Source of the DNA: a virus
IMG/VR virus record: IMGVR_UViG_3300047470_000524
Span: 1-42,280 of that record
Reading direction: 5' to 3' (one strand)
DNA: 42,280 nucleotides
Shown here: positions 5,130 through 42,280 of the stretch, piece after piece
How the letters are laid out: each line of letters starts with the position of its first letter
Position numbering within the stretch: position 1 is the first letter of the stretch
Position numbers and translations under genes: made by a program
The notes under the pieces: model-generated
The model's input: only the letters and a program-made list of their open reading frames with translations
What the model was told of the DNA's origin: nothing
The model's database searches: none

Positions 5130-5135
5130 TATTTA
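5130..5135 (-). promoter_or_regulatory. TAAATA element, 4 nt before ATG 5125
   Basis: Minus strand reads GCATAAATA-TGGG-ATG. This is one of the dispersed late-promoter-like elements described in the findings. Confidence 0.5.
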
Positions 5136-5775: not shown

Positions 5776-6239
5776 TCTGCGTGTTCATCCTCTTCTTCAA
5801 TTTCTTCAAATTCGGGTTCACGATCGGGTTCGACCATGTCGAAAATCGCCTGTGCGGAATCGGTGACGGTCAGCCGGATCGGGCCGTTGGCATTGCGGAC
5901 GCTGGTGTTGACGAGCGTCCCGCCCTCAACTTCAACACAGTCGACGATGTTGGTGCGATCCAAGGCGAAACGCTTGCCTTCCGCGCCGACCAAATCGACG
6001 ACATCGCCAACCATTTTCGCGCGCACATAGGTTGAGGTTTCGGCGACGATCGCGACAACGACGGTTTCGTTGTCGCCCAGTCGAAACCAGACAGCGGTTT
6101 TCTTTTTCGACTGACCAGCAGCGATTTTCCCGGTTTCGTCGCGGCCTTTGTCAGCGTCGGTCAGAGACTCGACAAGGCGGATGGCGTCGGGCGCGATCAT
6201 CAGCGCCTTGCCGTCGTGTTGATGTAAAATGATCTTCAT
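5772..6239 (-). CDS. hypothetical phage protein with very acidic C-terminus
   Basis: 155 residues, mostly beta-rich: strands such as KIILHQHDGKALMIAP, AVWFRLGDNETVVVAIVAE and RLTVTDSAQAIFDMV, then a terminal run of E and D (about 12 of the last 20 residues). It sits directly downstream of the giant tail gene and is preceded by TAAATA 5 nt before the ATG, with no Shine-Dalgarno site. Small beta-rich proteins in this position can be tail-fibre chaperones or virion proteins; no homology was recognised. Confidence 0.65.
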   Translation of the reverse strand: MKIILHQHDGKALMIAPDAIRLVESLTDADKGRDETGKIAAGQSKKKTAVWFRLGDNETVVVAIVAETSTYVRAKMVGDVVDLVGAEGKRFALDRTNIVDCVEVEGGTLVNTSVRNANGPIRLTVTDSAQAIFDMVEPDREPEFEEIEEEDEHAE

Positions 6240-6244
6240 GCACC

Positions 6245-6250
6245 TATTTA
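6245..6250 (-). promoter_or_regulatory. TAAATA element, 5 nt before ATG 6239
   Basis: Minus strand reads GGCTAAATA-GGTGC-ATG, in the 39-bp gap after the tail-tip gene. Confidence 0.5.
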
Positions 6251-6278
6251 GCCGGGCGCATGAAGCGCCCGACCAAGA

Positions 6279-9200
6279 TCAGATGAAGGTCCATTTCCCG
6301 ACCGCGTTGACGCTGAAATTCTGATAATTCGCGCTGACGTCCCGGCTGTAATAGTCGCCGCCATTTTGAACGCCAGTATCCTGATTACCCCGAATCGCGT
6401 AAACCTGAAGCCACAGGTCGCCAGCCACACCATCCGTGACTTCGACGGTCTTTCCACGATCGGCTAGAGAGACGGTACGCATCGCGCTGGAATTTGGATA
6501 AAGCCCGTCGCCCTGCCACGACATTTCCGCGACGATATTGTTGTTCTTCACCAGCCTGACGATGAGATTACCATCTTGCAGATAGTTGGTGTAAAATGGC
6601 TTCCCGCTCATAGTTGAAGTTACGGTACCGACGTTCGTTTGGAACGATGCGGTCACAGTCAGCGAATAGCTACCCAGCGCGCCTGCTTGTCCCATGTTTT
6701 GATTATACAGCATTAGTGTTTGGCCAGACGCTGGTGATCCAGACACGTTCGCATGTGCTTTCTTGACGAACATATCATAGTTGAGTGCCGACACAGATAG
6801 CGTCCCGGTAATCATAGCGTTGCCGTTAATCCGCAAGTCACCCCCGATATCGACCCCCGCGCCGCCATTTGCGTCGGCGTAAACTCGCAACTGTGCGCGG
6901 CCACCGGCAACTGCCTCAACCTGCCAAAACGCAGACGTCCGGCCTTGCAAGTTATTGATAGCGGTCTGCTGCGTCGAAACGCTGGAATTCAACGTGCCGA
7001 CCGTGCTGTTGAGCGAAGCATATTGGCCGGTTATGGTGGCAAGCGTCTGATACTGCTGAACGATCGAAGCCTCCGCGCTGTAAGGCGTAGCCACTGATCC
7101 TGTTTCAAACTTTGCCTGACGCCACCCGACAACCGTCATGGTGCCACTATCTTTACGCGTCACAAGAGAGACGCGCGCGAAATATGCGTTGCTAGGCGCA
7201 GCCGCCGTTTTCTTCATTTCCTCGCGGTTCACGCCGTTATTGTCGTAGTCACGCTGCACAGTTTTGTTCGTGCCGTATTCATGACCGACCTCAGTGGTGC
7301 CGTTTGAGCCGACCCATATAATCTCTACACGCGACCAGCAATTGGCGGACTTAAACATGACGTTATCCGCTGTGAACGTGTATGTCGCGCCGGGATTTAT
7401 AGCGAAAACGTCGGACAGCAGATAGTAATACTCACCGTCGCTGGGGTTGGAGTAAGTCGCCGCCGTTGCGCCCCATCCACCAAGACTAGAACCCCAACCC
7501 GCGCCGGTGGGCGTCCACCCAGCAAGGCCATTCTCGAAACCACCATTCTTGAGCATGTTTACGTTGCTGCCCGCCGACACCCGCGTTGTAAGCGAAGCAA
7601 CACTGCCCGTCAGCGTAGACGTTGTCGATTGCAAGGTGCTGATCGTCGCACCCTGTGTGGACACCGTCGATTGGAGCGTGGAAACGCTGCCCTGAACGGT
7701 CGTCATCGAAGATTGGAGGGTCGTAATGAAACCGCCCTGTGTGGAAACGGTCGTCGACAGGGTCGAGAGTTGCCCAGTCGCTGTGGTGATCGCCTGTGCC
7801 TGCTGCACAGCAGAGGCTTCTGTGGAGAAGCCCGACCATGTTGGTCCCGTCTCAACTTTGAACCGCCGGAACCCTGTGATTTGATTGCCGATGACTTCCG
7901 CAACAACACGCGGACGGATGCGCGTGGTGCCCGCAGGAGCCACGGCGGATATAGCAATCAGTGCGCGACGGCCATCATTGGCTGAAAAATTGAAAGTACC
8001 CACCTGCTGGTTCTGGCCACCGTCAAGCAGCAAGGTACCTGACGAATTGTAGAACAGCAGATCGCAATAGATCGAGGAGGTGCCATAGGCGATAGCGTCG
8101 CAATGCACCCAATAGGTGGCACCTACCTGCACGTTCGTGATTTCAGCGAAGGTAAAAACTTGAGTACCATTCACTGTAGTAGTGGCAGTCGGACCCCATT
8201 CGGCGCTGACATTCCAGACATAAGTTCCCGCCGAAATGACGCCGGTGTTATAGCCATTTTCCAAGCCGCCGTTGACAGCAAGATTGTTCTGAGACGCCGA
8301 CACCCGAGTGGTCAGGCTAGACACGTTACCTTGCAGCGTCGATGTCGTGGACTGCAAGGTGCTGATGCTGCCACCCTGCGAGGCCACGGTCGACTGGAGC
8401 GACGACACGGTTCCGTTAAGACCCGTATAGCTGCTCTGGAGCGTAGTGATGCTGCCGCCTTGCGAGGACACGGTAGTCGATAAAGTCGCATAGCTGGTAT
8501 TCAAATCAGCGTAGGCTTGGAAGGTCTGTGCTGCCGAGGCCTCCCCGCTATAAGGCGTGGCAATGCCACCCTGCTCCAGCTTGGGCTGACGCCATGCAAG
8601 GCTAGTCAAACTACCGCTGGTCATCGACGCTGTTAGTCGAACCTGTGCTGTGACGGCACCACTTGGTGCGACGCCCGACGCCTTCAAGGTGGCACGGCTG
8701 CTACCGTCGTTGGTGAAGTCTATGTTGGGCGATGAATAGCGCGACGAGCTTTGCGGGTTGCCCACGACACTACCAGTCGAGTTCTTGAACAAAATCTCAA
8801 CCCGCGTGCTGCCTGCGCCAGTCGTGAATAGCGAGCTATCTGCTGCGGCAGTATAGGCGGCACCCGGAAAAATGGGGACCGCCGGGCTATCTAGGAACAG
8901 CAACCCACTGAAATTGGCGTTGCGATACGCCGTGGAACCCCAAGGACCGGAGGAGATGGTGAATGAAGTACCGAACCAAGACGATAAGCCATTTTCAAAA
9001 CCGGAAATGATGTTTGGGTTGCTGGACGCGGCCACCACATTGGATAGCGTCGAAACGCTACCCTGCAACGTGGTGATCGCCGTGCCTTGAGAAGTGATCG
9101 ACGCACCTTGCGTGGAGACTGTCGACTGCAAGGTGCTTATCTGACCAGCTTGGGTGGTCGAACTGCTTTGCAGCGTGGATACGCTGCCTTGCAGGCTCGA

Positions 9201-14362: not shown

Positions 14363-15012
14363 GATCTATTTAGTATCTGCTGCGCGATGGCAGCCATGCC
14401 TCCACTAGCTGGCTTAGCCGTCGCAGCAGAAGGTGCCGCAATGCCCCAATAGATATCCCCAAGGGCGTCGATGTTATAATCAAGGCCGGTTTCGCCGGGC
14501 CATATCGACTGATGCCAATTGCCGTTCAGGCGTGCGCCCTCTTCAGACACGAACAAACGGTCAAACGCACTGACGGTTTCAACTTCCACTATCTGTGCAT
14601 TTTCGCCAATCTGAATGCGTGCAAAATCGAGGCGGCCAACCCACATCAATTCGGGCAGGCCGATGACCGCGCCGGTCATATCGTTGATGACACCAAACCA
14701 GACGCGAACTGGTGAACCCTGATGCTTGGGATTAGCCAGTTCTGCCGTTGCGGTCGGTGACGGCGGCATCATCGAAAATGTGAAACGCGGCGCGTCCGAC
14801 GCGACCGTATCTTCAAAACTTTTCGCTGTGGCGATTGAACCATAAATCGCGTCGCCACCGTCGAATGTGATCTGTTCACCATCAACGGAAAATGTCACTT
14901 CGCCCGATCCATCGATCAGGTTGACGACGCTTCCATTCGTCAGTTTGATCTGGACTGCGAAGAATGTGCGGATGAACGATTGGTCAAGCGCAGCGGTGAA
15001 TGAGGCGTCCAT
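14359..15012 (-). CDS. minor tail protein (possible DUF2163-like)
   Basis: 217 residues, beta-rich: strands FFAVQIKLTNGSVVNLIDG, VTFSVDGEQITFDGGD, RFTFSMMPPSP, and RVWFGVINDMTGAVIG with ELMWVGRLD. The last pattern (surface or loop description followed by a W-x-G-R-L-D strand and an IVEVET strand) recalls DUF2163/lambda L-like baseplate proteins. A glycine/alanine-rich C-terminus ends in AIAQQIL. It starts on the stop of the upstream gene (TAATG) and overlaps the NlpC-like gene by 4 nt, so the three are coupled. It is probably part of the tail-tip complex; family assignment is tentative. Confidence 0.65.
   Translation of the reverse strand: MDASFTAALDQSFIRTFFAVQIKLTNGSVVNLIDGSGEVTFSVDGEQITFDGGDAIYGSIATAKSFEDTVASDAPRFTFSMMPPSPTATAELANPKHQGSPVRVWFGVINDMTGAVIGLPELMWVGRLDFARIQIGENAQIVEVETVSAFDRLFVSEEGARLNGNWHQSIWPGETGLDYNIDALGDIYWGIAAPSAATAKPASGGMAAIAQQILNRS
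14367..14372 (-). promoter_or_regulatory. TAAATA element, 4 nt before ATG 14362
   Basis: Minus strand reads TACTAAATA-GATC-ATG. The element lies inside the last codons of the upstream minor tail gene (its L-N-R-S end), so it is kept even under coding constraint. Confidence 0.5.
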
Positions 15013-15582: not shown

Positions 15583-15588
15583 TATTTA
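15583..15588 (-). promoter_or_regulatory. TAAATA element, 4 nt before ATG 15578
   Basis: Minus strand reads GCATAAATA-TGGA-ATG, between the tape measure stop and the distal-tail gene. Confidence 0.5.
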
Positions 15589-18531: not shown

Positions 18532-18537
18532 TATTTA
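18532..18537 (-). promoter_or_regulatory. TAAATA element, 4 nt before ATG 18527
   Basis: Minus strand reads GACTAAATA-GTCG-ATG, in the 31-bp gap before the tape measure gene. Confidence 0.5.
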
Positions 18538-18792: not shown

Positions 18793-19130
18793 TCATCGTC
18801 AACGGCCTCCAAATCAACGCCGAAAAGTGAAGCGGAAAGGATCGAACCTGCCAGCACTGCATATTCGTGGAAATAGCCCGGTATGATGGCACGTCCGACA
18901 AGATCAAAGGCGTCTTTTTGGTGCATACCGCCTCCGACGAGGCCAAGGCGAACCACTTCAACAACGTCTTGGATTTCCCATTCGCCACGCACAAACCGGT
19001 TGAACAAAGCGCCCGGTCCTGCGGCCAATTTTTCTTGCAACGCGATGAGTTCTTCAACCCGAAGGCAAAGGTCATAATAACCTTCGCCCACGAACTGATT
19101 TTCAAGTTTTGCTGAACGCGGCGCTTCCAT
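18762..19130 (-). CDS. tail assembly chaperone (lambda G-like, zero-frame product)
   Basis: 122 residues from ATG 19130, which overlaps the tail-tube stop as TGATG; a longer frame upstream is antisense to coding sequence and is discarded. The protein is helical (LCLRVEELIALQEKLAAGP, IQDVVEVVRLGLVGGG, YFHEYAVLAGSILSASLF) with an acidic end (DDEGEEL). FNRFVRGEWEIQDVVEVVRLG resembles gene-transfer-agent/phage tail chaperones. Lying between tail tube and tape measure, it should keep the tape measure protein soluble and recruit tail tube subunits. Near its 3' end ribosomes probably shift to the -1 frame. Confidence 0.75.
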   Translation of the reverse strand: MEAPRSAKLENQFVGEGYYDLCLRVEELIALQEKLAAGPGALFNRFVRGEWEIQDVVEVVRLGLVGGGMHQKDAFDLVGRAIIPGYFHEYAVLAGSILSASLFGVDLEAVDDEGEELAPAIY

Positions 19131-19564
19131 CAGACAGTTGCCGTAACGGTGACAGCACCAGACTGTTCGAACGTCATCGTTGCTTCGACCATCTCGACGC
19201 GGTCGCCGGTGATCTGGAACGAAGTCAGGATATAGGGGCCGGTGACGGTGGCGGCAGGACCGGTGAACTTGATATTCTTCGCAACACCAGAGGCTGCCCA
19301 ATCCATGTATTCCTTTAATGACGCAGTATGCAGCAAACCCGCGCCGTCGATCTTCGAATCCGTAGACTGAGCAACACGAACCGTGGTGGCGGGCAGCGCC
19401 TGATTGGTGGCATCGGGAACTTCAGCGCTGGCCGTATTGACGGTCATCGTGAGACTGCGAGTGGTATTAATGAGCGCGGGATGTGCGAAAATTTCGGTCG
19501 GCGTAGCGCCGTTTCCAATCTGCACTGTGTACTGATAACCGCGCGCGGTCGTGATAGCTACCAT
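19130..19564 (-). CDS. major tail tube protein
   Basis: 144 residues from ATG 19564 (an in-frame TTG at 19582 is less likely). The sequence is beta-rich with features of TP901-1/lambda V-type tube proteins: a short N-terminal strand, ALINTTRSLTMTVNT, and a C-terminal half with FTGPAATVTGPYILTSFQIT then an EATMTFEQSGAV strand. Unlike its neighbours, it has a 5' leader of about 30 nt containing a near-perfect palindrome, and a GGAG 12 nt before the ATG. It should be among the most abundant virion proteins. It is coupled to the chaperone gene by a 1-nt overlap. Confidence 0.8.
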   Translation of the reverse strand: MVAITTARGYQYTVQIGNGATPTEIFAHPALINTTRSLTMTVNTASAEVPDATNQALPATTVRVAQSTDSKIDGAGLLHTASLKEYMDWAASGVAKNIKFTGPAATVTGPYILTSFQITGDRVEMVEATMTFEQSGAVTVTATV

Positions 19565-19575
19565 GGGTAATTTAA

Positions 19576-19602
19576 ACTCCAAACAATTGTTCGGAGTATT
19601 TA
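19576..19602 (-). promoter_or_regulatory. TAAATA element plus palindromic leader of the tail tube gene
   Basis: TAAATA lies at 19597-19602 (minus). Next to it is a 22-nt palindrome (19576-19597) with arms ACTCCGAACAA and TTGTTTGGAGT, one mismatched pair. The downstream arm carries the only GGAG before the ATG, so an RNA hairpin would mask or present the ribosome site. The same design precedes the major capsid gene. Confidence 0.6.
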
Positions 19603-19615
19603 TTCAAGCGACGCG

Positions 19616-19996
19616 TTATGCCGGTTGAAGCAGATACATCAATTCGATCCATGCCCGCTTCGTCATTCCATCGGGTTCAGTCGAATAGACCGTTTGCACA
19701 TAGTGACTTTCGCACGTCGCAAATCCTACGACTGGCAAGTCTATGGCAAGGGCTTTTGTCACCAACCCAGCCACCTGTTTGACCTTCGGCGTCGTGCGCT
19801 CAAACACATGGACGTTGACGGTGCAGGCATAGAATTCACCCGCGTCAAATTCGGCGTCGATGATGTCATCACCGATCTTGATGTAAGGAGGTTGCTGGTT
19901 CGCATCGACCTCATGGACGACGGCGTCATCGGTGACGGCAGTGATGGCCTGATAGACGGAGCGCTGAAGTTCGTACGATGGATCGGTGGTCATCAC
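19616..19996 (-). CDS. tail completion protein, DUF3168-like
   Basis: 126 residues. The start PSYELQRSVYQAITA followed by AVVHEVDANQQPPYIKIGDD matches DUF3168 tail terminator/completion proteins: an N-terminal helix, then a P-P-Y-I-x-I-G strand. Later comes CTVNVHVFERTTPKV, the conserved edge strand before a helix. It probably forms the hexameric ring joining tail to connector. It overlaps the upstream gp10-like gene by 4 nt. Confidence 0.85.
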   Translation of the reverse strand: MMTTDPSYELQRSVYQAITAVTDDAVVHEVDANQQPPYIKIGDDIIDAEFDAGEFYACTVNVHVFERTTPKVKQVAGLVTKALAIDLPVVGFATCESHYVQTVYSTEPDGMTKRAWIELMYLLQPA

Positions 19997-20397
19997 ATGC
20001 CCACTGCTTGCCGGATCAGTTTACGCAGGGCGCGAACCAGCGCCTTGCGGTGTTTGCGAACAATCAGCTTTTTGGCGGGCTGCCAAACATGCGCGCCTTC
20101 GATCCACGTCCCGTTGAGGTTGTGACCAAATTCAAGTGCAGCACCATATGGAAGCTGATCATTACCGATTGAGACGACATATTCGGCTGCCTTGGGATCG
20201 CCCTTGGTGAGTTCGATCGTGTCTGCAATATGCGGACCTTCATCGGACCGAGGCATATTGCGTCTGACGGTGCGTTCGAATTCGCGAGCGTGCTTTACGT
20301 TCGCTGCTTCAGCAGCGTCGTGCATCTTGGCAGGTAGGCGGCGAAGGTCATCGGCAAACTGCCGCATGTCGATCGACATGGACCACATATTAGCCAT
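19993..20397 (-). CDS. HK97 gp10-like tail-head connector protein
   Basis: 134 residues. A basic N-terminal helix (FADDLRRLPAKMHDAAEAAN) precedes the hallmark ALEFGHNLNG region, which in HK97 gp10 proteins reads Y-x-x-x-x-E-F-G-x, and a basic C-terminal helix (RKHRKALVRALRKLIRQ). It sits between the head closure and DUF3168 genes, the usual order. An 8-nt overlap with the upstream gene suggests coupled translation. Confidence 0.85.
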   Translation of the reverse strand: MANMWSMSIDMRQFADDLRRLPAKMHDAAEAANVKHAREFERTVRRNMPRSDEGPHIADTIELTKGDPKAAEYVVSIGNDQLPYGAALEFGHNLNGTWIEGAHVWQPAKKLIVRKHRKALVRALRKLIRQAVGM

Positions 20398-20755
20398 TGC
20401 TCACCTCCCCTGCCGTGCAGGCCAGCAGCAGGAACGATTTCCGCCCATCCTCAAGCGATCCCACCCATTTGATATTGTAGATTTGTCCGGACCGGGCATT
20501 GACGGCGATGTCTGCCGATGTGACCGCAAGAGCGGCGTCTGAGCGGCGAATGAGGATGTCAGCAGGCGCAAGGCCGCTCAGTCGCTGGGACTGGACGCTT
20601 TCGCCACCACGGGTTTGCACAATGCGCGCAGGCAGGTCGGTCAACAGGTCGGACCAGCTATCGACATAGCCGCCCATACCGTCGCTGATGCGATCACGAC
20701 GACGGATAGTCACACGATCGGACAAAGACCCCGCGCCGGGGACGCGCCACGCCAT
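20390..20755 (-). CDS. phage head closure protein
   Basis: 121 residues from ATG 20755. GSLSDRVTIRRRDRISDGMG followed by GYVDSWSDLLTDLPARI matches head closure proteins of the SPP1 gp16/HK97 gp7-type family (L-x-x-R-V-x-I-x-x, then G-G-x-x-x-x-W and A-R-I). Later NARSGQIYNIKWVGSLEDGR is the conserved Y-x-I-x-W-V-G strand ending. It seals the filled head and binds the tail. It starts 2 nt after the stop of the small upstream gene. Confidence 0.85.
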   Translation of the reverse strand: MAWRVPGAGSLSDRVTIRRRDRISDGMGGYVDSWSDLLTDLPARIVQTRGGESVQSQRLSGLAPADILIRRSDAALAVTSADIAVNARSGQIYNIKWVGSLEDGRKSFLLLACTAGEVSNG

Positions 20756-20757
20756 GA

Positions 20758-20925
20758 TTAGGCGTCCTCTTCGTCCGTCAGAATATCGTATTCTTCGGCC
20801 GCACCGGTTTCGATAGCGCGCATAGCGCATTCGTAGGCGACCTCGCCGACCCAGTCGGCTTCGTAGGCGATCGTCTTGTAGTCGGTTTCGCGATAATCGA
20901 AATCGCGCAGGAATTTCAGCGTCAT
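20758..20925 (-). CDS. small acidic phage protein between connector genes
   Basis: 55 residues (KFLRDFDYRETDYKTIAYE, then EVAYECAMRAIETG and an acidic tail DILTDEEDA). No family was recognised. A TAAATA element is 4 nt before the ATG and no Shine-Dalgarno site is seen. Its stop is 2 nt before the head closure start. Small proteins at this place vary among related phages. Confidence 0.65.
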   Translation of the reverse strand: MTLKFLRDFDYRETDYKTIAYEADWVGEVAYECAMRAIETGAAEEYDILTDEEDA

Positions 20926-20929
20926 CGGA

Positions 20930-20935
20930 TATTTA
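20930..20935 (-). promoter_or_regulatory. TAAATA element, 4 nt before ATG 20925
   Basis: Minus strand reads TGATAAATA-TCCG-ATG; TGA is the stop of the preceding connector gene. Confidence 0.5.
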
Positions 20936-21490
20936 TCAAAACCCGGCGTAGCGCTGGAGGATCGACGCCACCGCAAGCGGGATTTCCCGAATGGTCGCCT
21001 CTGACGTTGCTTCGCGGTGCATGTAATAGTGACCGACCAGCAAGCGGATGACATGCTTGAGGTCGGCAGGCGCATCGTCGTATCCAGCGGTGAATTCGAT
21101 TTTCACCCCACCGGGCTGGGCGCAAAGCGCCTGGCCCTGCGGGCCAGCGTCATTAATCCGGATAACTGCCGGACGCTGATCGATATCGACATAGTAGGAT
21201 GCTGGGTCCAGCGCGACACCATCGACTATGATGGATTGGATGGCTTTGACCGGATGCAGCGGGACGGAGATGCTGCGGGACAGCCTATCAAGCGACATTC
21301 GCCACGTTTGATCCACCAGCGCCAGTCCCACGCCGTTTGGCCCTTCGATGCTGTCGGTGGCGACATCGATTAGGATTGCGATGGTCGCGTCCTCATCGCT
21401 GTGGGCAATGTTGAGGTGGCGCTTTACGTCTTCAACGGTGACGACAGAGGCAGTGGGTGCAACGGTCCGCTTGAGTTTTGTCCAGTTCAT
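20936..21490 (-). CDS. head-tail connector protein (HK97 gp6-like)
   Basis: 184 residues. The N-terminus VVTVEDVKRHLNIAHSDEDA followed by ATIAILIDVATDSIE is the signature of gp6-like connector proteins (S-L-x-E-x-K-x-H-L-R-I/V, D-D-x-x-I). A middle V-D-Q-T-W strand and the C-terminal IRLLVGHYYMHREA fit the same family. It attaches beneath the portal. Its start has TAAATA 5 nt upstream, and it is the first minus gene after the intervening plus-strand gene and bidirectional terminator, so it may need its own promoter. Confidence 0.85.
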   Translation of the reverse strand: MNWTKLKRTVAPTASVVTVEDVKRHLNIAHSDEDATIAILIDVATDSIEGPNGVGLALVDQTWRMSLDRLSRSISVPLHPVKAIQSIIVDGVALDPASYYVDIDQRPAVIRINDAGPQGQALCAQPGGVKIEFTAGYDDAPADLKHVIRLLVGHYYMHREATSEATIREIPLAVASILQRYAGF

Positions 21491-21495
21491 ACCGA

Positions 21496-21501
21496 TATTT
21501 A
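21496..21501 (-). promoter_or_regulatory. TAAATA element, 5 nt before ATG 21490
   Basis: Minus strand reads GCATAAATA-TCGGT-ATG. It would restart transcription of the connector genes beyond the terminator at 21814-21840. Confidence 0.55.
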
Positions 21502-21558
21502 TGCCCGCGCCGGAATTCAGTGCGGCGGCGAAAAGGGACTATCAAGAGGGACCGAAGC

Positions 21559-21813
21559 ATGTCGGATTGGAAAACCAAGATCATTTTAGCAGCAGGTGAG
21601 ACCACCAAACCCACAGGAAGTCGCAGCACGGGGTTCATGCAGGAAACCGACGTGTACGACTATGATGTTGTCGCCGCAGATGGAACGAAGGTCGGAAATA
21701 TTACCGTCGAAGATCATACAGCGGTCAAGGGTTTTAAGCGTACCGTCACCGTGACTCAAACTGACGCGTCCGGCAAAACCATCGTCCATGAATCTTGGAA
21801 CCCGCCGAAGTAA
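21559..21813 (+). CDS. opposite-strand small protein inside the head operon (moron)
   Basis: 84 residues from ATG 21559, preceded by GAGGGA at good spacing. The chain is a small beta-rich domain (DVYDYDVVAADGTKVGNITV, then FKRTVTVTQTDASGKTIV) ending in WNPPK. No family was recognised. It is transcribed against the head genes, between capsid/60-residue and connector genes, and is followed at once by an intrinsic terminator. That autonomous arrangement is typical of morons expressed from the prophage. No clear promoter was identified; it must lie within about 60 bp upstream, overlapping the connector start region. Confidence 0.7.
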   Translation: MSDWKTKIILAAGETTKPTGSRSTGFMQETDVYDYDVVAADGTKVGNITVEDHTAVKGFKRTVTVTQTDASGKTIVHESWNPPK

Positions 21814-21840
21814 AAAGGGGCGGTTTCCCGCCCCTTTCTT
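21814..21840. terminator. bidirectional intrinsic terminator
   Basis: AAAGGGGCGG (21814-21823) and CCGCCCCTTT (21828-21837) form a perfect 10-bp stem with a 4-nt loop. TTTCTT follows on plus, and TTTTTAC on minus. It directly follows the stop of the plus gene and the stop of the minus 60-residue gene. Confidence 0.8.
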
Positions 21841-22021
21841 ATTCTACCTTTGGCTTTTTGACCGCCCGTTCCTTGGTCAGGGCGACTGTGGCGCGCTCTT
21901 CATCCTCTACCGGCTCCGCATATCCGGCAGCAATGAGCCGGACAGCATCTTCACCGTCGATGATGTCGCCGATGTCCCGATGAGGATCACCAGCGAGCGC
22001 CACCAATAGCTTGGCTCGCAT
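21839..22021 (-). CDS. small phage protein downstream of capsid
   Basis: 60 residues (KLLVALAGDPHRDIGDIIDG, RLIAAGYAEPV, basic end KKPKVE). Small proteins with an A-G-Y-A-x-P-V ending often follow the major capsid gene in HK97-like phages and may be connector accessories, but no function is established. The ATG overlaps the capsid stop (TGATG). Its stop lies in the bidirectional terminator. Confidence 0.65.
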   Translation of the reverse strand: MRAKLLVALAGDPHRDIGDIIDGEDAVRLIAAGYAEPVEDEERATVALTKERAVKKPKVE

Positions 22022-23205
22022 CAGGCCTGCACCAACACCTTGATGGCGCTGTTGTCCATCACACGGCCGTCAATGCGGGCAAAACCAACGAAACCAACCT
22101 GATCGCTGTCGGCGTAGCGTTCATCAAGACGCTTGATCGACAGACCGCCAGCCAGCCGCCCGGTATATTTCTGGAAATCGCCACCAAGAACGGTGCGGAC
22201 GCCGGTGGCGGCAACACTGGGCATGTCGTTGTTGACGTAATAGCGCTGACCGGCGATCGTTTCTGCGACCGGGCCGTTAGCCGGGGTCCAGATGTAGCGG
22301 CCTTCGCCATCCTTCAGCTTACGAAGCGTCTTCAGCATATTGTCATGGAACATATAAGCGAAGTTGGATCGATAGGCCGGGTCGACCGAATGGAACAGGT
22401 CGATGAGTTCGTCATAGAGGATGCCCGTCTGCGTGGCAGCGGTGACACCGACCGACGCACCGGTGACGATACCCTGCGGCTGCGCCGTCCCGGTTCCCTT
22501 GGTCAGAAGCTCATTGATACCACGGCCGAAGCGCTCACCGATCGCCTTGCCCACGAAATCGACGATGTTGATGGCGCTGTCGGCAATCAGTTCGCTCGAA
22601 ACCTTGAACACGCCGCTGGTCAGCTTATAAGCACCCAGCGAGGTCTGACCGAAGACCGCATCAGTATCAGCAGCCTGCGTGTTTTCAGCAATCAGCGTGG
22701 CCTTGTTACCCGTGTCATTGTTCGTGGCGAACGCCATCGGATTGCCCGACGCGGTGATCAGATAGTTGATCGGTCCACCTACGTTCAGGGGACCATAAGC
22801 CTTCATAGTCTCGATGAGGGTACCGTTGAGGTCAGTCGGAACGGTATAGCCGCCAGCAGCATTGGTCGCTACACCAGCAGCGCGAACTTCAGCGGACGAA
22901 ACCATGCCACGCAGATAGTCGGTGAATATGCCAGCCCGGACGTCTTCATCCGACAGGCCAGCAGAACGTGCTTCGACTTCTACCGTCTGGGCAGGGATGT
23001 CGGTAGCGATAGCGGACCATTCACGGCTACGCGCTTCGGCACCGGCCATACGATCGGAACGAGCAGCATAGGCGTCAGCATCGACCATCATACGGTCAAA
23101 TTCAGCTTCCTTCTCACCACGGTTTTCGTCAGTGATAGTGTTGAGTAGATTGCGCGCTTGATTTGCAATCTCTTCCGACTTCAGTCGGAGTTCATTGGCG
23201 TTCAT
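22021..23205 (-). CDS. major capsid protein, HK97 fold
   Basis: 394 residues from ATG 23205. An N-terminal charged coiled coil (about 1-60, delta/scaffold-like) is followed by the HK97 family body: GGYTVPTDLNGTLIETMKAY near 130, GQTSLGAYKLTSGVFKVSSE near 200, then a region with GTGTAQPQGIVTG and an FAYMFHDNMLKTLRKLKDGE string. The C-terminal half has GDFQKYTGRLAGGLSIKRLD and FVGFARIDGRV, all hallmark capsid segments. The prohead protease upstream probably cleaves after the coil. The leader carries a palindrome shared only with the tail tube gene. Confidence 0.95.
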   Translation of the reverse strand: MNANELRLKSEEIANQARNLLNTITDENRGEKEAEFDRMMVDADAYAARSDRMAGAEARSREWSAIATDIPAQTVEVEARSAGLSDEDVRAGIFTDYLRGMVSSAEVRAAGVATNAAGGYTVPTDLNGTLIETMKAYGPLNVGGPINYLITASGNPMAFATNNDTGNKATLIAENTQAADTDAVFGQTSLGAYKLTSGVFKVSSELIADSAINIVDFVGKAIGERFGRGINELLTKGTGTAQPQGIVTGASVGVTAATQTGILYDELIDLFHSVDPAYRSNFAYMFHDNMLKTLRKLKDGEGRYIWTPANGPVAETIAGQRYYVNNDMPSVAATGVRTVLGGDFQKYTGRLAGGLSIKRLDERYADSDQVGFVGFARIDGRVMDNSAIKVLVQA

Positions 23206-23213
23206 ATTAAGAG

Positions 23214-23245
23214 ATATCTCCAAACAATTTGTTCGAAGATATTTA
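23214..23245 (-). promoter_or_regulatory. TAAATA element plus palindromic leader of the capsid gene
   Basis: CATAAATA lies with its hexamer at 23240-23245. A 29-nt imperfect palindrome (23214-23242; arms ATATCTTCGAACAA and TTGTTTGGAGATAT, two mismatched pairs, 1-nt centre) fills the leader. GGAG in the second arm is 12 nt before the ATG, the same spacing as in the tail tube leader. Confidence 0.6.
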
Positions 23246-25157: not shown

Positions 25158-25163
25158 TATTTA
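25158..25163 (-). promoter_or_regulatory. TAAATA element, 4 nt before ATG 25153
   Basis: Minus strand reads GCATAAATA-TGAG-ATG in the 39-bp gap after terL. Confidence 0.5.
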
Positions 25164-27249: not shown

Positions 27250-27255
27250 TATTTA
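27250..27255 (-). promoter_or_regulatory. TAAATA element, 4 nt before ATG 27245
   Basis: Minus strand reads GGCTAAATA-TTAG-ATG, ahead of the terminase genes, so a natural start of the packaging/head transcript. Confidence 0.55.
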
Positions 27256-28105: not shown

Positions 28106-29188
28106 CTAAAATGGCACCTCATCACTGTCAGACACTGAGACTTTACCTTCGACGATGACGAATGCCTCCGATGAGCCAGCGATATGAAATCGACGAGCGA
28201 CCCTCTCAGCAGCTTTGGTGAATGGAGTCATACCGACGTTATCAGTGAGCATTAACCCAGCTTCTCTGTAGTAAGCAATCAATCTGTCTACTGAATTTCG
28301 ACATATCTTGAAAAGACCGGTGGTATCATCAGACGTCATTTCATTGGCTATCGCCGATCCAATCGCCACGCATGATTTATCATATTCTATAAAATGGTAG
28401 TACTCATCATCAGAATCGTACGTTCCTAATTCCATATTCGAAAAAACGATAGGGAAGAAGGCAATCCAAGAAGCTTCTATTATCGCAGCACTCCCTTCCC
28501 TTCTATCAAATCGATTAGCCACCACCATAGGATTAAGGCTTATGGTGGTTAGATCGTTCGCCGCTGGCAAACTTGGCAGCGGGATATCTACAGCTAAATT
28601 CCCAATAGCGTCGCGTATCTCTTGATTTTCTTTCCGAACTCTATTTAGTTCTTCTAAAGCATCGAGACTCGCTATGCTATCGCCTCGAACCCAGCCAATA
28701 CGCGGTTTAGTGGCTTTTGCGTGATCTAGCGCCTCACGAACCGCCAGTTTAAGGTCACCCAAAGTGGACCAGCTTTTCCGGAGTCGCTTATGTTCCGCCT
28801 CAGAAATGAATGCTCTGAGGCTTTCTTTGCCTGCGTCCGTAGTTTCAAGCTTATCCGCTGTTATGCTACCGGGCTGACCATGAACCATCACAAGTACCGG
28901 AACATTCTGCGAAACAGCATACCGAAATTCTTTGTGGGTGTAGCTCAGTCCGTCTTCGGATACGCTACCATATCGACCTGCGGTTATGAGAAGATAGTAA
29001 TCGCATTTATCTATTAGCGATTTTATAAACTCAAATTGATCCTCATCTGCTGCGGGGAAGGATTCCATCTGCACTGGAAAGTCACCCATACTGATGACAA
29101 CGTCCTGCACCGCCCGTCGCTCTTCCTGTAGGTCTTGATATGTAGAACTGATGAAGACCTGAAATCTTTTTTCGTGCACGCCGACCAT
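28106..29188 (-). CDS. DUF4062-domain protein (TIR-like fold), probable defence cargo
   Basis: 360 residues. RFQVFISSTYQDLQEERRAV (8-27) is the diagnostic DUF4062 start. It is followed by the SFPAADEDQFEFIKSLIDKC block, CDYYLLITAGRYGSV near 65 and GLSYTHKEFRYAV near 82, all matching the family through about residue 140. The C-terminal 200 residues are unrecognised (S-N-M-E-L-G-T-Y strand, ending E-G-K-V-S-V-S-D-S-D). DUF4062 proteins occur in antiphage contexts and have a TIR/flavodoxin-like fold; enzymatic activity is unproven. Its composition is AT-richer than flanking phage genes. It separates the HNH gene from terS, which are usually adjacent. Confidence 0.88.
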   Translation of the reverse strand: MVGVHEKRFQVFISSTYQDLQEERRAVQDVVISMGDFPVQMESFPAADEDQFEFIKSLIDKCDYYLLITAGRYGSVSEDGLSYTHKEFRYAVSQNVPVLVMVHGQPGSITADKLETTDAGKESLRAFISEAEHKRLRKSWSTLGDLKLAVREALDHAKATKPRIGWVRGDSIASLDALEELNRVRKENQEIRDAIGNLAVDIPLPSLPAANDLTTISLNPMVVANRFDRREGSAAIIEASWIAFFPIVFSNMELGTYDSDDEYYHFIEYDKSCVAIGSAIANEMTSDDTTGLFKICRNSVDRLIAYYREAGLMLTDNVGMTPFTKAAERVARRFHIAGSSEAFVIVEGKVSVSDSDEVPF

Positions 29189-29267: not shown

Positions 29268-29597
29268 TCAGCTATCTTGAGGCCCGTTCGGATGTTCGCC
29301 GTCGATCGGATAGCCCGCGAGATCGCACGCGATGTCGTACCCTGCCCTCTCCTGCCGTGCCTTGGCGGCATCGTGGCAGGTTTTGCACATAGACTGGACC
29401 TCACCATCCCAGAATAGGTCTGGGTCACCCCGATGTGGAATGACGTGATCCACCACGGTCGCGGCGCTGGTGACGCCCATGGCAAGGCAATATCGGCACA
29501 GGGGTTCCGCCTGAAGGTGGGCCAAACGCTTCACCTTCCACCGCTTCCACCCATACCAGCGCCTATAGACGCTGGCTTCGTCAGACCGCCGATCCAT
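29268..29597 (-). CDS. HNH endonuclease (packaging-associated type)
   Basis: 109 residues. The zinc pair CRYC (34-37), the VVDHVIPHRGDPDLFWD core (48-64, with D-H and a downstream H) and the second pair CKTCHDAAKARQE (71-83) define the HNH fold. The short length, the W-x-R-x-K-x-x-L N-terminus, and a place a few genes before terS/terL match the HNH proteins required for specific cos cleavage in several phages. Here two cargo genes stand between it and terS. Its start overlaps the preceding gene by 17 nt. Confidence 0.9.
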   Translation of the reverse strand: MDRRSDEASVYRRWYGWKRWKVKRLAHLQAEPLCRYCLAMGVTSAATVVDHVIPHRGDPDLFWDGEVQSMCKTCHDAAKARQERAGYDIACDLAGYPIDGEHPNGPQDS

Positions 29598-29820
29598 CCC
29601 AAGGACCGTCCAGATTTAGAGGTTCGCCGCCCGGTAAACCGGGCAGTATTTTGGCTGGGTTCGCTGCATGTTTGAAAACAGCGAAATACCGGATCAGCGC
29701 ATCCGCCATCTGATAAAGTTCTTCCCGACGCTGCTTTTCGTTCGCCTTTGCGCTCCAAGTCATCATCTCACGGACGATGACTTCCGCGACCATATGCTTG
29801 GTCGGCTCATTTCCCTTCAT
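29581..29820 (-). CDS. hypothetical small phage protein
   Basis: 79 residues from ATG 29820 (a GTG at 29829 is in frame). Helical: HMVAEVIVREMMTWSAKANE, ELYQMADALIRYFAVFKHA, then a glycine/proline-rich end. It overlaps both neighbours (14 nt with the membrane protein upstream, 17 nt with HNH downstream), so it belongs to the same operon. No family was recognised. Confidence 0.6.
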   Translation of the reverse strand: MKGNEPTKHMVAEVIVREMMTWSAKANEKQRREELYQMADALIRYFAVFKHAANPAKILPGLPGGEPLNLDGPWDGSAV

Positions 29821-30520: not shown

Positions 30521-30526
30521 TAAATA
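30521..30526 (+). promoter_or_regulatory. TAAATA element, 4 nt before ATG 30531
   Basis: Plus strand reads ACCTAAATA-TGGG-ATG, the same spacing as in the late genes although this gene is on the other strand. A UUCG-type hairpin (CTGGCCC/GGGCCAG, 30488-30504) lies just upstream. Confidence 0.5.
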
Positions 30527-30530
30527 TGGG

Positions 30531-31325
30531 ATGGCAAAGCTATCCCACGCGCAGGTCAAACAGCATCGTTTGGCCTGTGATCTACTGACCAAAGACGCCC
30601 TGACGCTGGACGAACGCGAATTCGTTGTCGAGAATTGGAACGAAGGCGCGGAACACAACAACGCCGCCGCAGGCGCGTTCTTCACCCCGCTAGGGCTGGC
30701 CTATGATATGGCGCTGGACGTGTCTGGCAAACGCATCCTCGACCTATGCGCCGGTATCGGCGGTCTGTCATACGCGGCCTATTGGCATGGTCGCCGCTAT
30801 AATGATCGACCGGAAATCACCTGCGTCGAAATGAATCCGGGCTATGCTGCTGTCGGCCGCAAGATCATGCCAGAAGCCCGGTGGATCGAAGCCGATGTCC
30901 AGAACCTTCCCGATGATCTGGGCAAGTTTGACTGGGTGATTTCGAACCCGCCCTTTGGCAAAAAGATCAAGATTGCAGGACCGCGCTATGTTGGCGAAGC
31001 CGATCTGGCGGTCATCGACATAGCAAGCCAATATGCACCGGATGGCACCTTCATCATTCCGCAGATGTCTTGCCCGTTCGAATATAGCGGTCGGCCATAT
31101 TATCGGCAGCGCCCCAGCGCCAAATATGAGCGTTTCCACAAAGCGACCGGCATCAACTTGGAAGCCGGATGTGGGGTCGATTGCTCGTATTACATCGCCG
31201 CGTGGAAGGGTGTTGCTCCGTCTGTCGAGATAGTCACGGCTGATTTTGAGACACAATGCCCAATGCTTCATCGGCAGCGGCATTCTGGGCCAGTTGTTCC
31301 TGAAAGTCACGGGCGGCAGTATTGA
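30531..31325 (+). CDS. DNA methyltransferase (N6-adenine type, Rossmann fold)
   Basis: 264 residues. GAFFTPLGLAYDMAL precedes SAM motif I DLCAGIGGLSYAA (71-83), then an acidic ECVEMNP-type strand (TCVEMNPGY) and the catalytic NPPFGKK at 139-145, as in N-6 adenine-specific enzymes with D/N-P-P-Y/F. No target-recognition domain is evident beyond about 230. It may protect phage DNA from host restriction. The last 31 codons overlap the convergent FRG gene, and the tail after VEIVTADFE may be an extension created when that gene arrived. Confidence 0.88.
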   Translation: MAKLSHAQVKQHRLACDLLTKDALTLDEREFVVENWNEGAEHNNAAAGAFFTPLGLAYDMALDVSGKRILDLCAGIGGLSYAAYWHGRRYNDRPEITCVEMNPGYAAVGRKIMPEARWIEADVQNLPDDLGKFDWVISNPPFGKKIKIAGPRYVGEADLAVIDIASQYAPDGTFIIPQMSCPFEYSGRPYYRQRPSAKYERFHKATGINLEAGCGVDCSYYIAAWKGVAPSVEIVTADFETQCPMLHRQRHSGPVVPESHGRQY

Positions 31326-31989
31326 TGTCGTTATAGATACGCTCATTGCTGATACCGAACAACCTTAGCGCCGCTAAAACCCGAGATTTTTGATCTGCCT
31401 GTATAACAAAAATATTGGGATCGTGCTCCTCGTTCATGTGCGAGTTATTCCGGCAATGCAGTGTCATTATGCTGTCTTGTGCCAGAGTTCGCTTGTTCAT
31501 ATTCTCAGCGTTTACTAATGCTGGTCCACCATGCCACTCGGTGAAGGGGTCTTTGTTTGGCGGTGAAGGTACCAGTTCATTCTGAGTGACTTGCAAAACA
31601 GAACCACTTACCCCCATCCCACTCCTTTCATCCTTTGCTGGCTGACAGGCAAAAAAGAGTGCAACCAGTGGGTTGGTGGTCCAGTCCAAAAGAGGAGTGT
31701 AAACGCCATAATGCTGCGCCAGCACCAGCCATTCTAAGTCTGACAGTGGCCGATCCTGAAACCGTCCTGAAACCTGTTTCCAACGGGCTAATTCAACGAA
31801 GCTCGTTATCCCAAACCCAGCCTCTCGAAAGGCCGTTGGGATAGCTCGCCATGTAGAGTTTGCATGACCACGGTACATCGCAAGAGTCCCTAGCTTGCTG
31901 GAGACGACCGCAAGAAAGTTCGAAATTATATTAAGGCCGTCGTTTATTAGCAAAATTGCCTCCACCATGATGGAAGGCGCGAGATACAT
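31234..31989 (-). CDS. FRG-domain protein, probable defence cargo
   Basis: 251 residues from ATG 31989. LAMYRGHANSTWRAIPTAFR (about 37-56) is the FRG start motif (F/Y-R-G-H/Q-x-x-x-x-W-x-L/I-x-P). The second hallmark is LAQHYGVYTPLLDWTTNPLV with ALFFAC (about 88-114). The C-terminal half has a further FVIQADQKSRVLAAL strand and a helical end. FRG proteins are found in antiphage and toxin contexts; activity is not settled. It starts 17 bp after the endolysin stop on the same strand and collides 3' to 3' with the methyltransferase over 92 bp. Confidence 0.88.
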   Translation of the reverse strand: MYLAPSIMVEAILLINDGLNIISNFLAVVSSKLGTLAMYRGHANSTWRAIPTAFREAGFGITSFVELARWKQVSGRFQDRPLSDLEWLVLAQHYGVYTPLLDWTTNPLVALFFACQPAKDERSGMGVSGSVLQVTQNELVPSPPNKDPFTEWHGGPALVNAENMNKRTLAQDSIMTLHCRNNSHMNEEHDPNIFVIQADQKSRVLAALRLFGISNERIYNDINTAARDFQEQLAQNAAADEALGIVSQNQP

Positions 31990-32005
31990 CACCTCGATTG
32001 AGCAG

Positions 32006-37699: not shown

Positions 37700-37790
37700 T
37701 ATTTATCCCAATCGCTCTAACCTTTGCCGGTCGCCCTCACAGCTTCCGACTCTATTTATACCGAATCGCGATTTTCGGAGTCCATATTTA
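37700..37790 (-). promoter_or_regulatory. three TAAATA elements upstream of the primase operon, with AATCGCGATT palindrome
   Basis: Minus-strand TAAATA occurs at 37700-37705 (GGATAAATATA), 37753-37758 (GGTATAAATAG, exact TATAAATA) and 37785-37790 (TTTAAATATGG). The 10-bp palindrome AATCGCGATT lies at about 37764-37773 between the last two. Confidence 0.45.
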
Positions 37791-37838: not shown

Positions 37839-37844
37839 TAAATA
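37839..37844 (+). promoter_or_regulatory. TAAATA element of the 37870 gene
   Basis: Plus strand reads GCATAAATAG, 25 nt before ATG 37870, with GGAG in between, so here a short normal leader is expected. It diverges from the three minus-strand copies. Confidence 0.45.
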
Positions 37845-37869: not shown

Positions 37870-38154
37870 ATGAACTGCACAACACGTCCGGCTGTCGCCG
37901 TAGAACACTTTAACGCATTTAATTCAGCGCGGACTATCGAGTCGATGACCGAATCCGAGGCGCGTGCCGCCCTGATGATCGTCACCGAGCCATACTCAGT
38001 CTACGCGCTCCAAAGGCGAATTTACGATCTAGCAAGGCAGGCGCTTCCGCGTCCGCCAGCGCTAGCCACTTCTCCAATCCCGATGCCAGCGGACCTTTTG
38101 GCCAAATTTTCGCCCGCGTTGCAAGCCGCCCTGCGCGCCAAGCAGCCCGCATGA
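37870..38154 (+). CDS. hypothetical small protein
   Basis: 94 residues; ATG preceded by CGGAG at about 8 nt. Features: a central helix SMTESEARAALMIVTEPYSV, then YALQRRIYDLARQALPRP and an alanine/proline-rich end. No family was recognised. It is divergent from the primase and first in the rightward early region, so an early regulatory or replication-accessory role is possible. Confidence 0.6.
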   Translation: MNCTTRPAVAVEHFNAFNSARTIESMTESEARAALMIVTEPYSVYALQRRIYDLARQALPRPPALATSPIPMPADLLAKFSPALQAALRAKQPA

Positions 38155-38274: not shown

Positions 38275-38865
38275 TCAGACGGCGCCCCCTTTTAAGGGCG
38301 CTCTAAAATGCTCTATCGATAAATCAAATTTAACATTGAAAAATCGATGACCTGAAATCTTATGACGAATTTTCAGAAAATCACGAAAGTTTACATTCTT
38401 AATACCATTTTTCCTCAAACTTTTACTAAAGTGAAACCACTGCCTGCAAAGTGTATCTCTCTCTACATATTTATCAATTCTTTTTGCGTGCTGAAATTCA
38501 TTAACAGCCTGCAATTCAGAACCGTATTTTTGCAGACGATATGCCTTCGCCGTCCGATCGAACCACCGTCCATGAAGGTGCAAGAACTTGTAGGACTGCC
38601 ATGTCCGTGAAACATATGACAAGGCCCGCATAAGCCCGGTTTCCGTCAATTCTCCGCCGCGCCTTGCAAGAACGCCAAGCACGGTCAATCGTGCCGTCAC
38701 ATTCTTCAAAGTGAATTGATGAAGTGGCCAACTAGCTATTTCGCCCTCGTGCATGTCCTTTGTTAAGAGCGCGGCCAGATGTCGTGCATGATCCAGCGCC
38801 TTCGCCTGCCGCGTTTCGGCGCTCTTTGATAGCCAGCCATCGTGAATTTTCGTTTGGTCGATCAT
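38275..38865 (-). CDS. hypothetical protein with basic C-terminal half
   Basis: 196 residues. The N-terminal half is helical (LDHARHLAALLTKDMHEGE, LGVLARRGGELTETGLMRAL), where GGELTETGLMRALS could be a winged-helix-like element. The C-terminal half is rich in K, R, H and F (FRDFLKIRHKISGHRFFNVK), and more AT-rich than its neighbours. No family was recognised. It is alone on the minus strand among rightward early genes, as a lysogeny regulator or cargo gene might be; neither is shown. Confidence 0.55.
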   Translation of the reverse strand: MIDQTKIHDGWLSKSAETRQAKALDHARHLAALLTKDMHEGEIASWPLHQFTLKNVTARLTVLGVLARRGGELTETGLMRALSYVSRTWQSYKFLHLHGRWFDRTAKAYRLQKYGSELQAVNEFQHAKRIDKYVERDTLCRQWFHFSKSLRKNGIKNVNFRDFLKIRHKISGHRFFNVKFDLSIEHFRAPLKGGAV

Positions 38866-41002: not shown

Positions 41003-42280
41003 TCAGCCTGCTTTAGCCAGCCCGTCCTGTCCAGCTTCCGCCTTCACGATTGTCGCGATTGCGTCCACATGCTCGCCCCAGACAGCCAGTGCGTGCCGCT
41101 TTTCTGCATAGTAGTCCCATCGATCATAGACCCCTTCCGGTCCTGCGATTGTATGGTTTAAAACGCGCTCGATGTGATCCTTGTCGATCATGCGCTTGTG
41201 ATGGTCATCAAGCAGCCCGTTCATCCCGCTTCCCACGGTGCGGCGCAAGTCGTGGGTGGTCCAGTGTTCGACCGCTTTGCCATCCTTCGCGGCTAGCTTG
41301 ACCATATGATTCATGGTGCGCTTGATGATTTTAGAAAATCCACTCATCGGCCGCTCTTCGTCATCTTTGACCAAAGCCCTCTGTTTACTCGCCCAGACCA
41401 ATTTCTGCCCTTTAGGGCGCGAAACAGCTAGTCGTCGCATCATGGCCAGTGCGGTAGGAGGCAATGCCAACAGCAGTTCTCGACCGTTTTTAGACCGATG
41501 TTTCGGTATGAGCCAGTTACCCTTGTCGAGGTCGAATTCGGACCATTCGGCCGCGAAAGCCTCTTCCTTCCGCGTGGCGGTGTAAAGGATCAGCGTCCAC
41601 TGATCGCGAAATGGACAATCCACTTCATTGATCGCCCGCAGAAATAGGCCGATTTCATATTCGTCAAAGTATCTGTCGCGCCCCTTCGTCGCCGCCAGTT
41701 TCACCAAGTCGATGGTCGGATTAACCTTCAGCCCGGTTTCCGTCCGCCCTTTGGTGACTGCCCACCGCCACCAGCGCTTCACCATCGCGGTCATAGCGTT
41801 CGACATGATCGGTGATGTGACAAACTTGGCGTCGATCAGCCTTGCAAAATCGTCATGGTCGACTTCAAAAATCGATTTATCGCCCAACGCAGGTTTAAAC
41901 TCTCGATTGTAGATGCGCCGCTTCTCGTCGGCCGATCGACGATTGCCGCCTTCGCGGCTCATATAGACCTCAAACATCCAATCGACAGTGCGGGCGTCAC
42001 GGATGGCCGCCTCCTTCTTCTCGACCTTAGCTTCCGCAATCACGGTGCGATCCACGTTCATGCGCGCAGCCCAGTCGGCTGCGGCCTTCATCGAATGCGC
42101 CGTAGTCGGTCCCAGCGTCTCCGTCGTGGGCTGGCCGCCAACACGACCACGCCACTTCCAGACCTTGCCCCCGGTTTTGCCAACGAACAGCCAGAGGTTC
42201 TTTTGCCCCTCGACAGCATACTGCCCCGGCTCCCTCAACGCTTCGACCGCCTTGGCGTTATATGCAACTTTCAAGCCCAT
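41003..42280 (-). CDS. int: tyrosine recombinase, phage integrase (P4-like)
   Basis: 425 residues from ATG 42280 at the window edge. An N-terminal DUF4102-type arm-binding domain (VAYNAKAVEALREPGQYAVE followed by GQKNLWLFV) precedes a core-binding domain (about 95-185). Catalytic residues: R237 (YTATRKEEA), K264 (HRSKNGRE), H343-x-x-R346 (HWTTHDLRR), H376 (VLNHT) and Y385 (GVYDRWDYY), nine residues after H376 as in XerD. It should recombine a tRNA-type core such as the one at 2237. Promoter and attachment site lie to the right, outside the window. Confidence 0.95.
   Translation of the reverse strand: MGLKVAYNAKAVEALREPGQYAVEGQKNLWLFVGKTGGKVWKWRGRVGGQPTTETLGPTTAHSMKAAADWAARMNVDRTVIAEAKVEKKEAAIRDARTVDWMFEVYMSREGGNRRSADEKRRIYNREFKPALGDKSIFEVDHDDFARLIDAKFVTSPIMSNAMTAMVKRWWRWAVTKGRTETGLKVNPTIDLVKLAATKGRDRYFDEYEIGLFLRAINEVDCPFRDQWTLILYTATRKEEAFAAEWSEFDLDKGNWLIPKHRSKNGRELLLALPPTALAMMRRLAVSRPKGQKLVWASKQRALVKDDEERPMSGFSKIIKRTMNHMVKLAAKDGKAVEHWTTHDLRRTVGSGMNGLLDDHHKRMIDKDHIERVLNHTIAGPEGVYDRWDYYAEKRHALAVWGEHVDAIATIVKAEAGQDGLAKAG

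Follow-up and report, generated by a model that had tools for sequence, protein, structure and literature searches.

Probable late promoters within Shine-Dalgarno hairpins at capsid and tail tube genes of a clade of small siphophages whose late genes look mostly leaderless

Why should the capsid and tail tube genes of a virus carry twin palindromic leaders? We address this question in IMG/VR record IMGVR_UViG_3300047470_000524, the whole of which (42,280 nt, positions 1 to 42,280) is referred to below as the window, and whose phage is probably temperate, because an integrase is encoded at 41003-42280. Both genes lie on the - strand, the tail tube protein gene (MTP; PF06199) at 19130-19564 with its ATG at 19564, and the major capsid protein gene (MCP; HK97 fold family, PF05065) at 22021-23205 with its ATG at 23205. 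Read from the window sequence, the tail tube leader is TAAATA-CTCCGAACAATTGTTTGGAG-TTTAAATTACCC-ATG and the capsid leader is TAAATA-TCTTCGAACAAATTGTTTGGAG-ATATCTCTTAAT-ATG. A previous reading made from the letters alone (the sequence-only reading) had described on both genes a TAAATA, a palindrome with a common core, and GGAG in its second arm, and we find just this: TAAATA stands 32 nt (tail tube) and 34 nt (capsid) before the ATG, GGAG lies in the 3' arm at 12 nt from the ATG in both cases, and the core TTGTTTGGAG has two exact occurrences in the window. In our view each of the two leaders is probably a late promoter lying within a hairpin that blocks translation, in phages most of whose other late genes look leaderless.

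The capsid box (23240-23245), which is preceded by CA, is predicted to correspond, in a promoter of the T4 late type, to positions -11 to -6, and its end is overlapped by a hairpin of 13 bp with a loop of 3 (23214-23242), with the anti-Shine-Dalgarno sequence UCUUC in the 5' arm and the Shine-Dalgarno (SD) sequence GGAG (23218-23221) in the 3' arm, paired with offsets 2-5 after TAAATA. The tail tube box (19597-19602) is followed immediately by the anti-SD CUCC, and the hairpin spans 19576-19597, of which CTCCGAACAATTGTTTGGAG makes up 19577-19596 and GGAG, in the 3' arm, 19577-19580. Folding energies are -13.0 kcal/mol for the capsid leader and -11.7 kcal/mol for that of the tail tube (z -5.1 and -4.3 against shuffles). 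T4 promoter geometry (PMC1524935), together with the scan of cut points presented below, places the predicted start of the capsid mRNA at 23234, the sixth nt after TAAATA and inside the 5' arm, and that of the tail tube mRNA at 19591.

The sequence-only reading had also held that no other gene in the window has such a leader, and here it missed TAAATA as a promoter-like element ahead of most late genes. The window contains 13 copies of ATAAATA (1.8 expected), and nearly all late genes show a short form, TAAATA-N4/5-ATG without SD, which is found at no fewer than 10 window genes besides those for capsid and tail tube. On the - strand, a spacer of 4 nt separates box and ATG at the genes for the small terminase (27250-27255), portal (25158-25163, without a strong hairpin), a small head protein following the connector (20930-20935) and the tape measure (18532-18537), at two tail genes (15583-15588 and 14367-14372) with hairpins across the AUG (GAUCA..UGAUC in the latter), and at a leader at 5130-5135; the spacer is 5 nt at the head-tail connector gene (21496-21501) and at a leader at 6245-6250. 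The small terminase AUG lies within the hairpin UUAGAUGG-CACGA-CCAUCUAA, in whose stem A-U in the window is replaced by G-C in the relative L004. On the + strand, the DNA methyltransferase gene (30521-30526, spacer of 4 nt) has a strong hairpin across its AUG, of -13.3 kcal/mol when whole and -1.8 kcal/mol when cut at the AUG, and a third SD-hairpin leader, with TAAATA at 37839-37844 on this early strand and GGTGGTCTTAAAACGGAGATTACC ahead of the ATG at 37870, has a stem sequence other than that of the capsid and tail tube leaders. The claim of uniqueness consequently fails for TAAATA and for the leader at 37839, while among structural genes the long SD-hairpin leader is indeed reserved for capsid and tail tube, and this throughout the clade described below. 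Opposite the putative promoter at 37839, the - strand of 37705-37790 has three TAAATA boxes inside 90 bp, one of them being TATAAATA, with partly complementary CTCCGAA/TTCGG and GACTC/GAGTC between them; this is possibly a regulatory or replication region.

A capsid search returned L004 (84% identity) and L005/L055 (55-56%), and a portal alignment search added over a dozen others, the majority of them at 47-51% identity. The resulting clade sample comprises 18 contigs (363 kb in total, window included), many of them fragments. Tail tube and TerL queries yielded few or no new relatives, an exact search for the core in viral contigs recovered mostly unrelated sequences, and no cultured phage was found within the clade. 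Across the sample, 110 of 209 TAAATA sites are followed by an ATG-led open reading frame at a spacer of 4 or 5, and permuted hexamers of the same composition gave 0-1 such sites, the only exceptions being two permutations that overlap with TAAATA. The long SD-hairpin leader is present in 16 of 16 contigs for MCP and 10 of 10 for MTP, and the short form at the portal (17/17), the tape measure (9/9), the small terminase (11) and other genes. The TAAATA array is absent from capsid relatives at 35-40% identity (L006-L012, L053, L057, L058) and from the Sphingomonas prophage L154, whose terminase is 40% identical.

Stem sequence, stem length and centre spacing vary from phage to phage, and also from one gene to the other within a phage. 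Twin-like hairpins at MCP and MTP are found in four phages (the window, G391, G392 and G402), each with its own sequence, and in others the two hairpins differ from each other; L055, for example, has both long leaders with different hairpin sequences. The core, for which a search in related phages had been proposed, is therefore not essential, because relatives keep the hairpin and GGAG on unrelated stems. This variation bears equally on the suggestion that a phage repressor binds the palindromes as DNA operators. The window palindromes do share their sequence and cover the predicted start site, and the comparison of sense and antisense folding given below does not exclude DNA, but palindrome sequence, length and centre differ within a single phage (G390, G393, G394, G397, L055) as well as between phages, which makes an operator barely conceivable. 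A common operator was likewise rejected, given that a shared palindrome sequence with a fixed centre is not seen in the clade.

What, then, is TAAATA? Its best reading, from sequence and context, is a promoter of the T4 late type. The T4 late promoter TATAAATA spans -13 to -6, and the form in Aeh1, CTAAATA, extends from -13/-12 to -6 (PMC1524935); the clade consensus, [A/C]TAAATA, for which 141 of 149 sites have A or C at -12, matches the core of these gp55-read promoters, and its spacing to the predicted start fits them. The box precedes the portal, capsid, tube, tape measure and other genes with no strong -35 element, as expected of this promoter type, extra upstream signal being weak at -34 to -17 and nil at -56 to -35. 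Moreover, 11 contigs have a strong same-strand terminator that ends 6-17 nt ahead of TAAATA, in most cases between the capsid gene and its successor, and the gene behind the terminator then needs a new promoter; in the window, an intrinsic terminator at 21815-21840 (- strand) lies downstream of the capsid gene and ahead of the putative connector promoter, a layout repeated in relatives. Additionally, divergent genes carry TAAATA in both directions (e.g. in L061). By analogy with T4, we infer a start about 6 nt after TAAATA; in the short class the ATG lies 4-5 nt past the box and very rarely nearer. Taken over all 18 contigs, there is also a weak G-C-C-x-G and T signal at -34 to -24 from the predicted start, at a fixed distance from TAAATA, which is perhaps a -35-region element.

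Two alternative hypotheses place TAAATA in the RNA. In the first, UAAAUA and the hairpin form an element of a long polycistronic late mRNA, where an endonuclease or RNA-binding protein opens the hairpin or generates leaderless 5' ends. As the stem begins 0-1 nt after TAAATA, one RNA could hold both, and cleavage near the same point would likewise strip the anti-SD; however, terminators directly upstream and divergent genes demand promoters at these positions, and the identity of the box with the T4/Aeh1 late promoter, the weak -35-region signal and a T4-type late sigma factor in a relative point the same way, so that we regard this explanation as unlikely. The second treats TAAATA as a translation signal for genes without SD, an AU-rich S1 or standby site, which would act as a standby before the capsid and tube hairpins. 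It is favoured by the place of TAAATA, which in most late genes takes up -10 to -5 relative to the AUG, yet a strict hexamer with A or C ahead is not expected for S1 binding, and the capsid and tube box lies some 30 nt upstream beside a good SD in every relative; the chances of this hypothesis appear very slim.

The late sigma factor just mentioned is encoded by G402, a 37-kb prophage-like contig of the clade (L150, 5243-6034, +). This 264-aa protein of the gp55 family matches phrog_12791 at 1.2e-63, can be aligned with gp55 proteins, and shares 27% identity with T4 gp55 over 102 aa (BLASTP E 3e-8). Its small host contig stands apart within the family, for gp55-family homologues, among the matches listed, belong to phages of 284-490 kb.

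Under a T4-like promoter, every late gene or short gene group would have its own T4-late-like start signal, with [A/C]TAAATA at -12 to -6. A start about 6 nt downstream would coincide with the AUG for most genes and produce leaderless mRNAs, whereas for capsid and tail tube, the two most abundant virion proteins, it would fall about 30 nt upstream of the AUG and yield an mRNA with an SD. In these two leaders the start point would lie within the 5' arm, whose first 5-6 nt are the anti-SD. RNA reading through from upstream would thus form the complete hairpin, with a masked SD, and be translationally silent, and promoter-started RNA, without the anti-SD, would leave the SD free and translation open; that promoter-started RNA lacks this part of the 5' arm would hold if the start is as in T4. 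In about one third of the leaderless genes the first nt of the 5' arm would mask the AUG instead. With the SD open solely in promoter-started RNA, translation of capsid and tail tube would therefore be coupled to late-promoter firing.

Folding predictions are consistent with such a mechanism. Sequestration of SD or AUG in read-through RNA is predicted for capsid and tube and, among short-class sites, for about one in three. SD-type leaders have a mean fold energy that lies far below that of shuffles from offset 0 (z -15, and down to -29 at offsets 0 to -4) and is equal to or above it from +4 to +6, where the excess structure is lost, and the short class passes from z -9.5 at offset 0 to +1.8 to +5 at +4 to +6. 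GGAG pairs with offsets 1-6 in most MCP and MTP leaders. Relative to the whole hairpin, a cut at the predicted start increases predicted SD opening about 9,500-fold (geometric mean of 36 SD-type leaders), as compared with about 2-fold for control SD genes, and the opening climbs until a cut at +5/+6 and is flat afterwards. Furthermore, swapping leaders (first nt) between sites weakens folding (Z -8 for the SD type, -6.7 for the short type). The proposal that the hairpin controls ribosome access thus gains support in modified form, with the SD in the 3' arm clade-wide and a predicted opening that depends on where the RNA would start.

Several observations weigh against this interpretation. The loss of structure on removing a stem's first nt is partly expected for any stem, and inner pairing of the SD persists after the cut in some SD leaders (G390, G393, L059, L066 capsid). 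A strong hairpin crosses the AUG at just 35 of 113 short sites, most commonly at the small terminase gene (8/11) and never at the portal gene in the clade contigs, and synonymous codons do not favour the short-type hairpin (Z +1.2), although swapping of spacers does reveal pairing with the own gene. Comparing the folding of the two strands, sense and antisense, does not discriminate between RNA and DNA (p 0.09 for the SD type, 0.96 for the short type), and G.U wobble as proof of RNA was dropped on these values. Lastly, and this is the main gap in the model, no sigma factor was found in the 42-kb window or in 16 other contigs, many of them fragments; a search with sigma-70 region 2 gave no match, and one for a late sigma in 385 alphaproteobacterial genomes gave none either, though no control matched in these.

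Several leaders would retain a residual stem in promoter-started RNA (-5.0 and -6.0 kcal/mol in the window), as might be expected if the hairpin served chiefly to keep the two most abundant mRNAs from decaying at the 5' end, TAAATA being an ordinary promoter. However, after removal of the first 4-6 nt the class as a whole is no more structured than shuffles, and the conserved pairing is that of the anti-SD, which promoter-started RNA would lack. A simple 5'-stabilising role, as put forward by the sequence-only reading, fits less well because these nt (the first 5-6) should be missing from that RNA; we see only a slim chance that protection is the chief function, and the residual stem suggests at most a side role in mRNA stability. 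The T7 gene 10 leader also places a hairpin on a capsid gene, wholly inside the promoter-started RNA, whereas the predicted start in the present clade cuts through the hairpin.

A closer likeness exists with T4 e, soc, 49, I-TevI and segB and with Aeh1 mobE, all with a late promoter on the 5' border of a hairpin in which the SD or the AUG is masked; their read-through RNA is silent and their promoter-started RNA lacks the 5' arm (PMC3014915, PMC2988022). As at e, soc, 49 and I-TevI, the clade has its putative late promoter box on the 5' border of an SD- or AUG-masking hairpin. In T4, however, this concerns a few genes that lie within early or middle transcripts, and late leaders have an SD; in the clade it concerns capsid and tube in each relative, the other late genes appear mostly leaderless, and we are dealing with small temperate HK97-like siphophages. 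When 16 T4 late leaders were folded as a control, they showed no surplus of structure from offset 0 (z -0.9). A few T4 genes are known to use the mechanism, and the leaderless, almost genome-wide form proposed here for small temperate siphophages appears to be a new version.

A wider proposal, to which we give about even chances, is that this clade has a T4-type late promoter before nearly every late gene and mostly leaderless late mRNAs, and reserves a promoter-gated SD hairpin for the pair of virion proteins with the highest copy number; whether an mRNA can be translated would then be decided by its start site, and read-through, for instance from lysogen cargo genes, would make no virion proteins. 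Cargo-like genes with DUF4062 and FRG domains lie upstream of the late block (28106-29188 and 31234-31992, - strand), and are a possible source of read-through on the late strand.

Some further features were noted. A small conserved protein (29584-29820, - strand; 63-97 aa in relatives, LPGLPGG near its end) is encoded upstream of an HNH gene in 10 of 12 contigs; it has no convincing Pfam match, its two-helix model is not informative, and it is a candidate regulator. For 38278-38865 the single-sequence structure model (pLDDT 43) was unusable. L004 has an insert between the capsid and connector genes (5833-6996, - strand), and the protein encoded there resembles SIR2-like proteins by eye, with no Pfam match. 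Many viral contigs unrelated to the clade (L013-L016, L025-L028, L030-L033, L035, L040, L042, L046, L048, L050) contain CGAACAATTGTTCGGAGT close to a stretch rich in T, frequently accompanied by another copy of CGAACAATTGT. In the unrelated phages L017, L019 and L020 (6254-6273 in L020), a -10-like box, perhaps of the host type, is followed by CCGAACAAGTTTTGTTTGGAG and ATG, a similar promoter-plus-hairpin layout.

If the proposed mechanism is correct, what in T4 is a curiosity of a handful of genes would hold as a rule almost genome-wide in phages of an unrelated kind, and leaderless translation would be predicted for most late genes. The design would be a compact one, in which the choice of start site governs transcription and translation together, and it suggests a reason why SD leaders are confined to the capsid and tail tube genes. 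It also bears on how late genes of temperate phages may stay silent despite read-through RNA, and makes that question testable.

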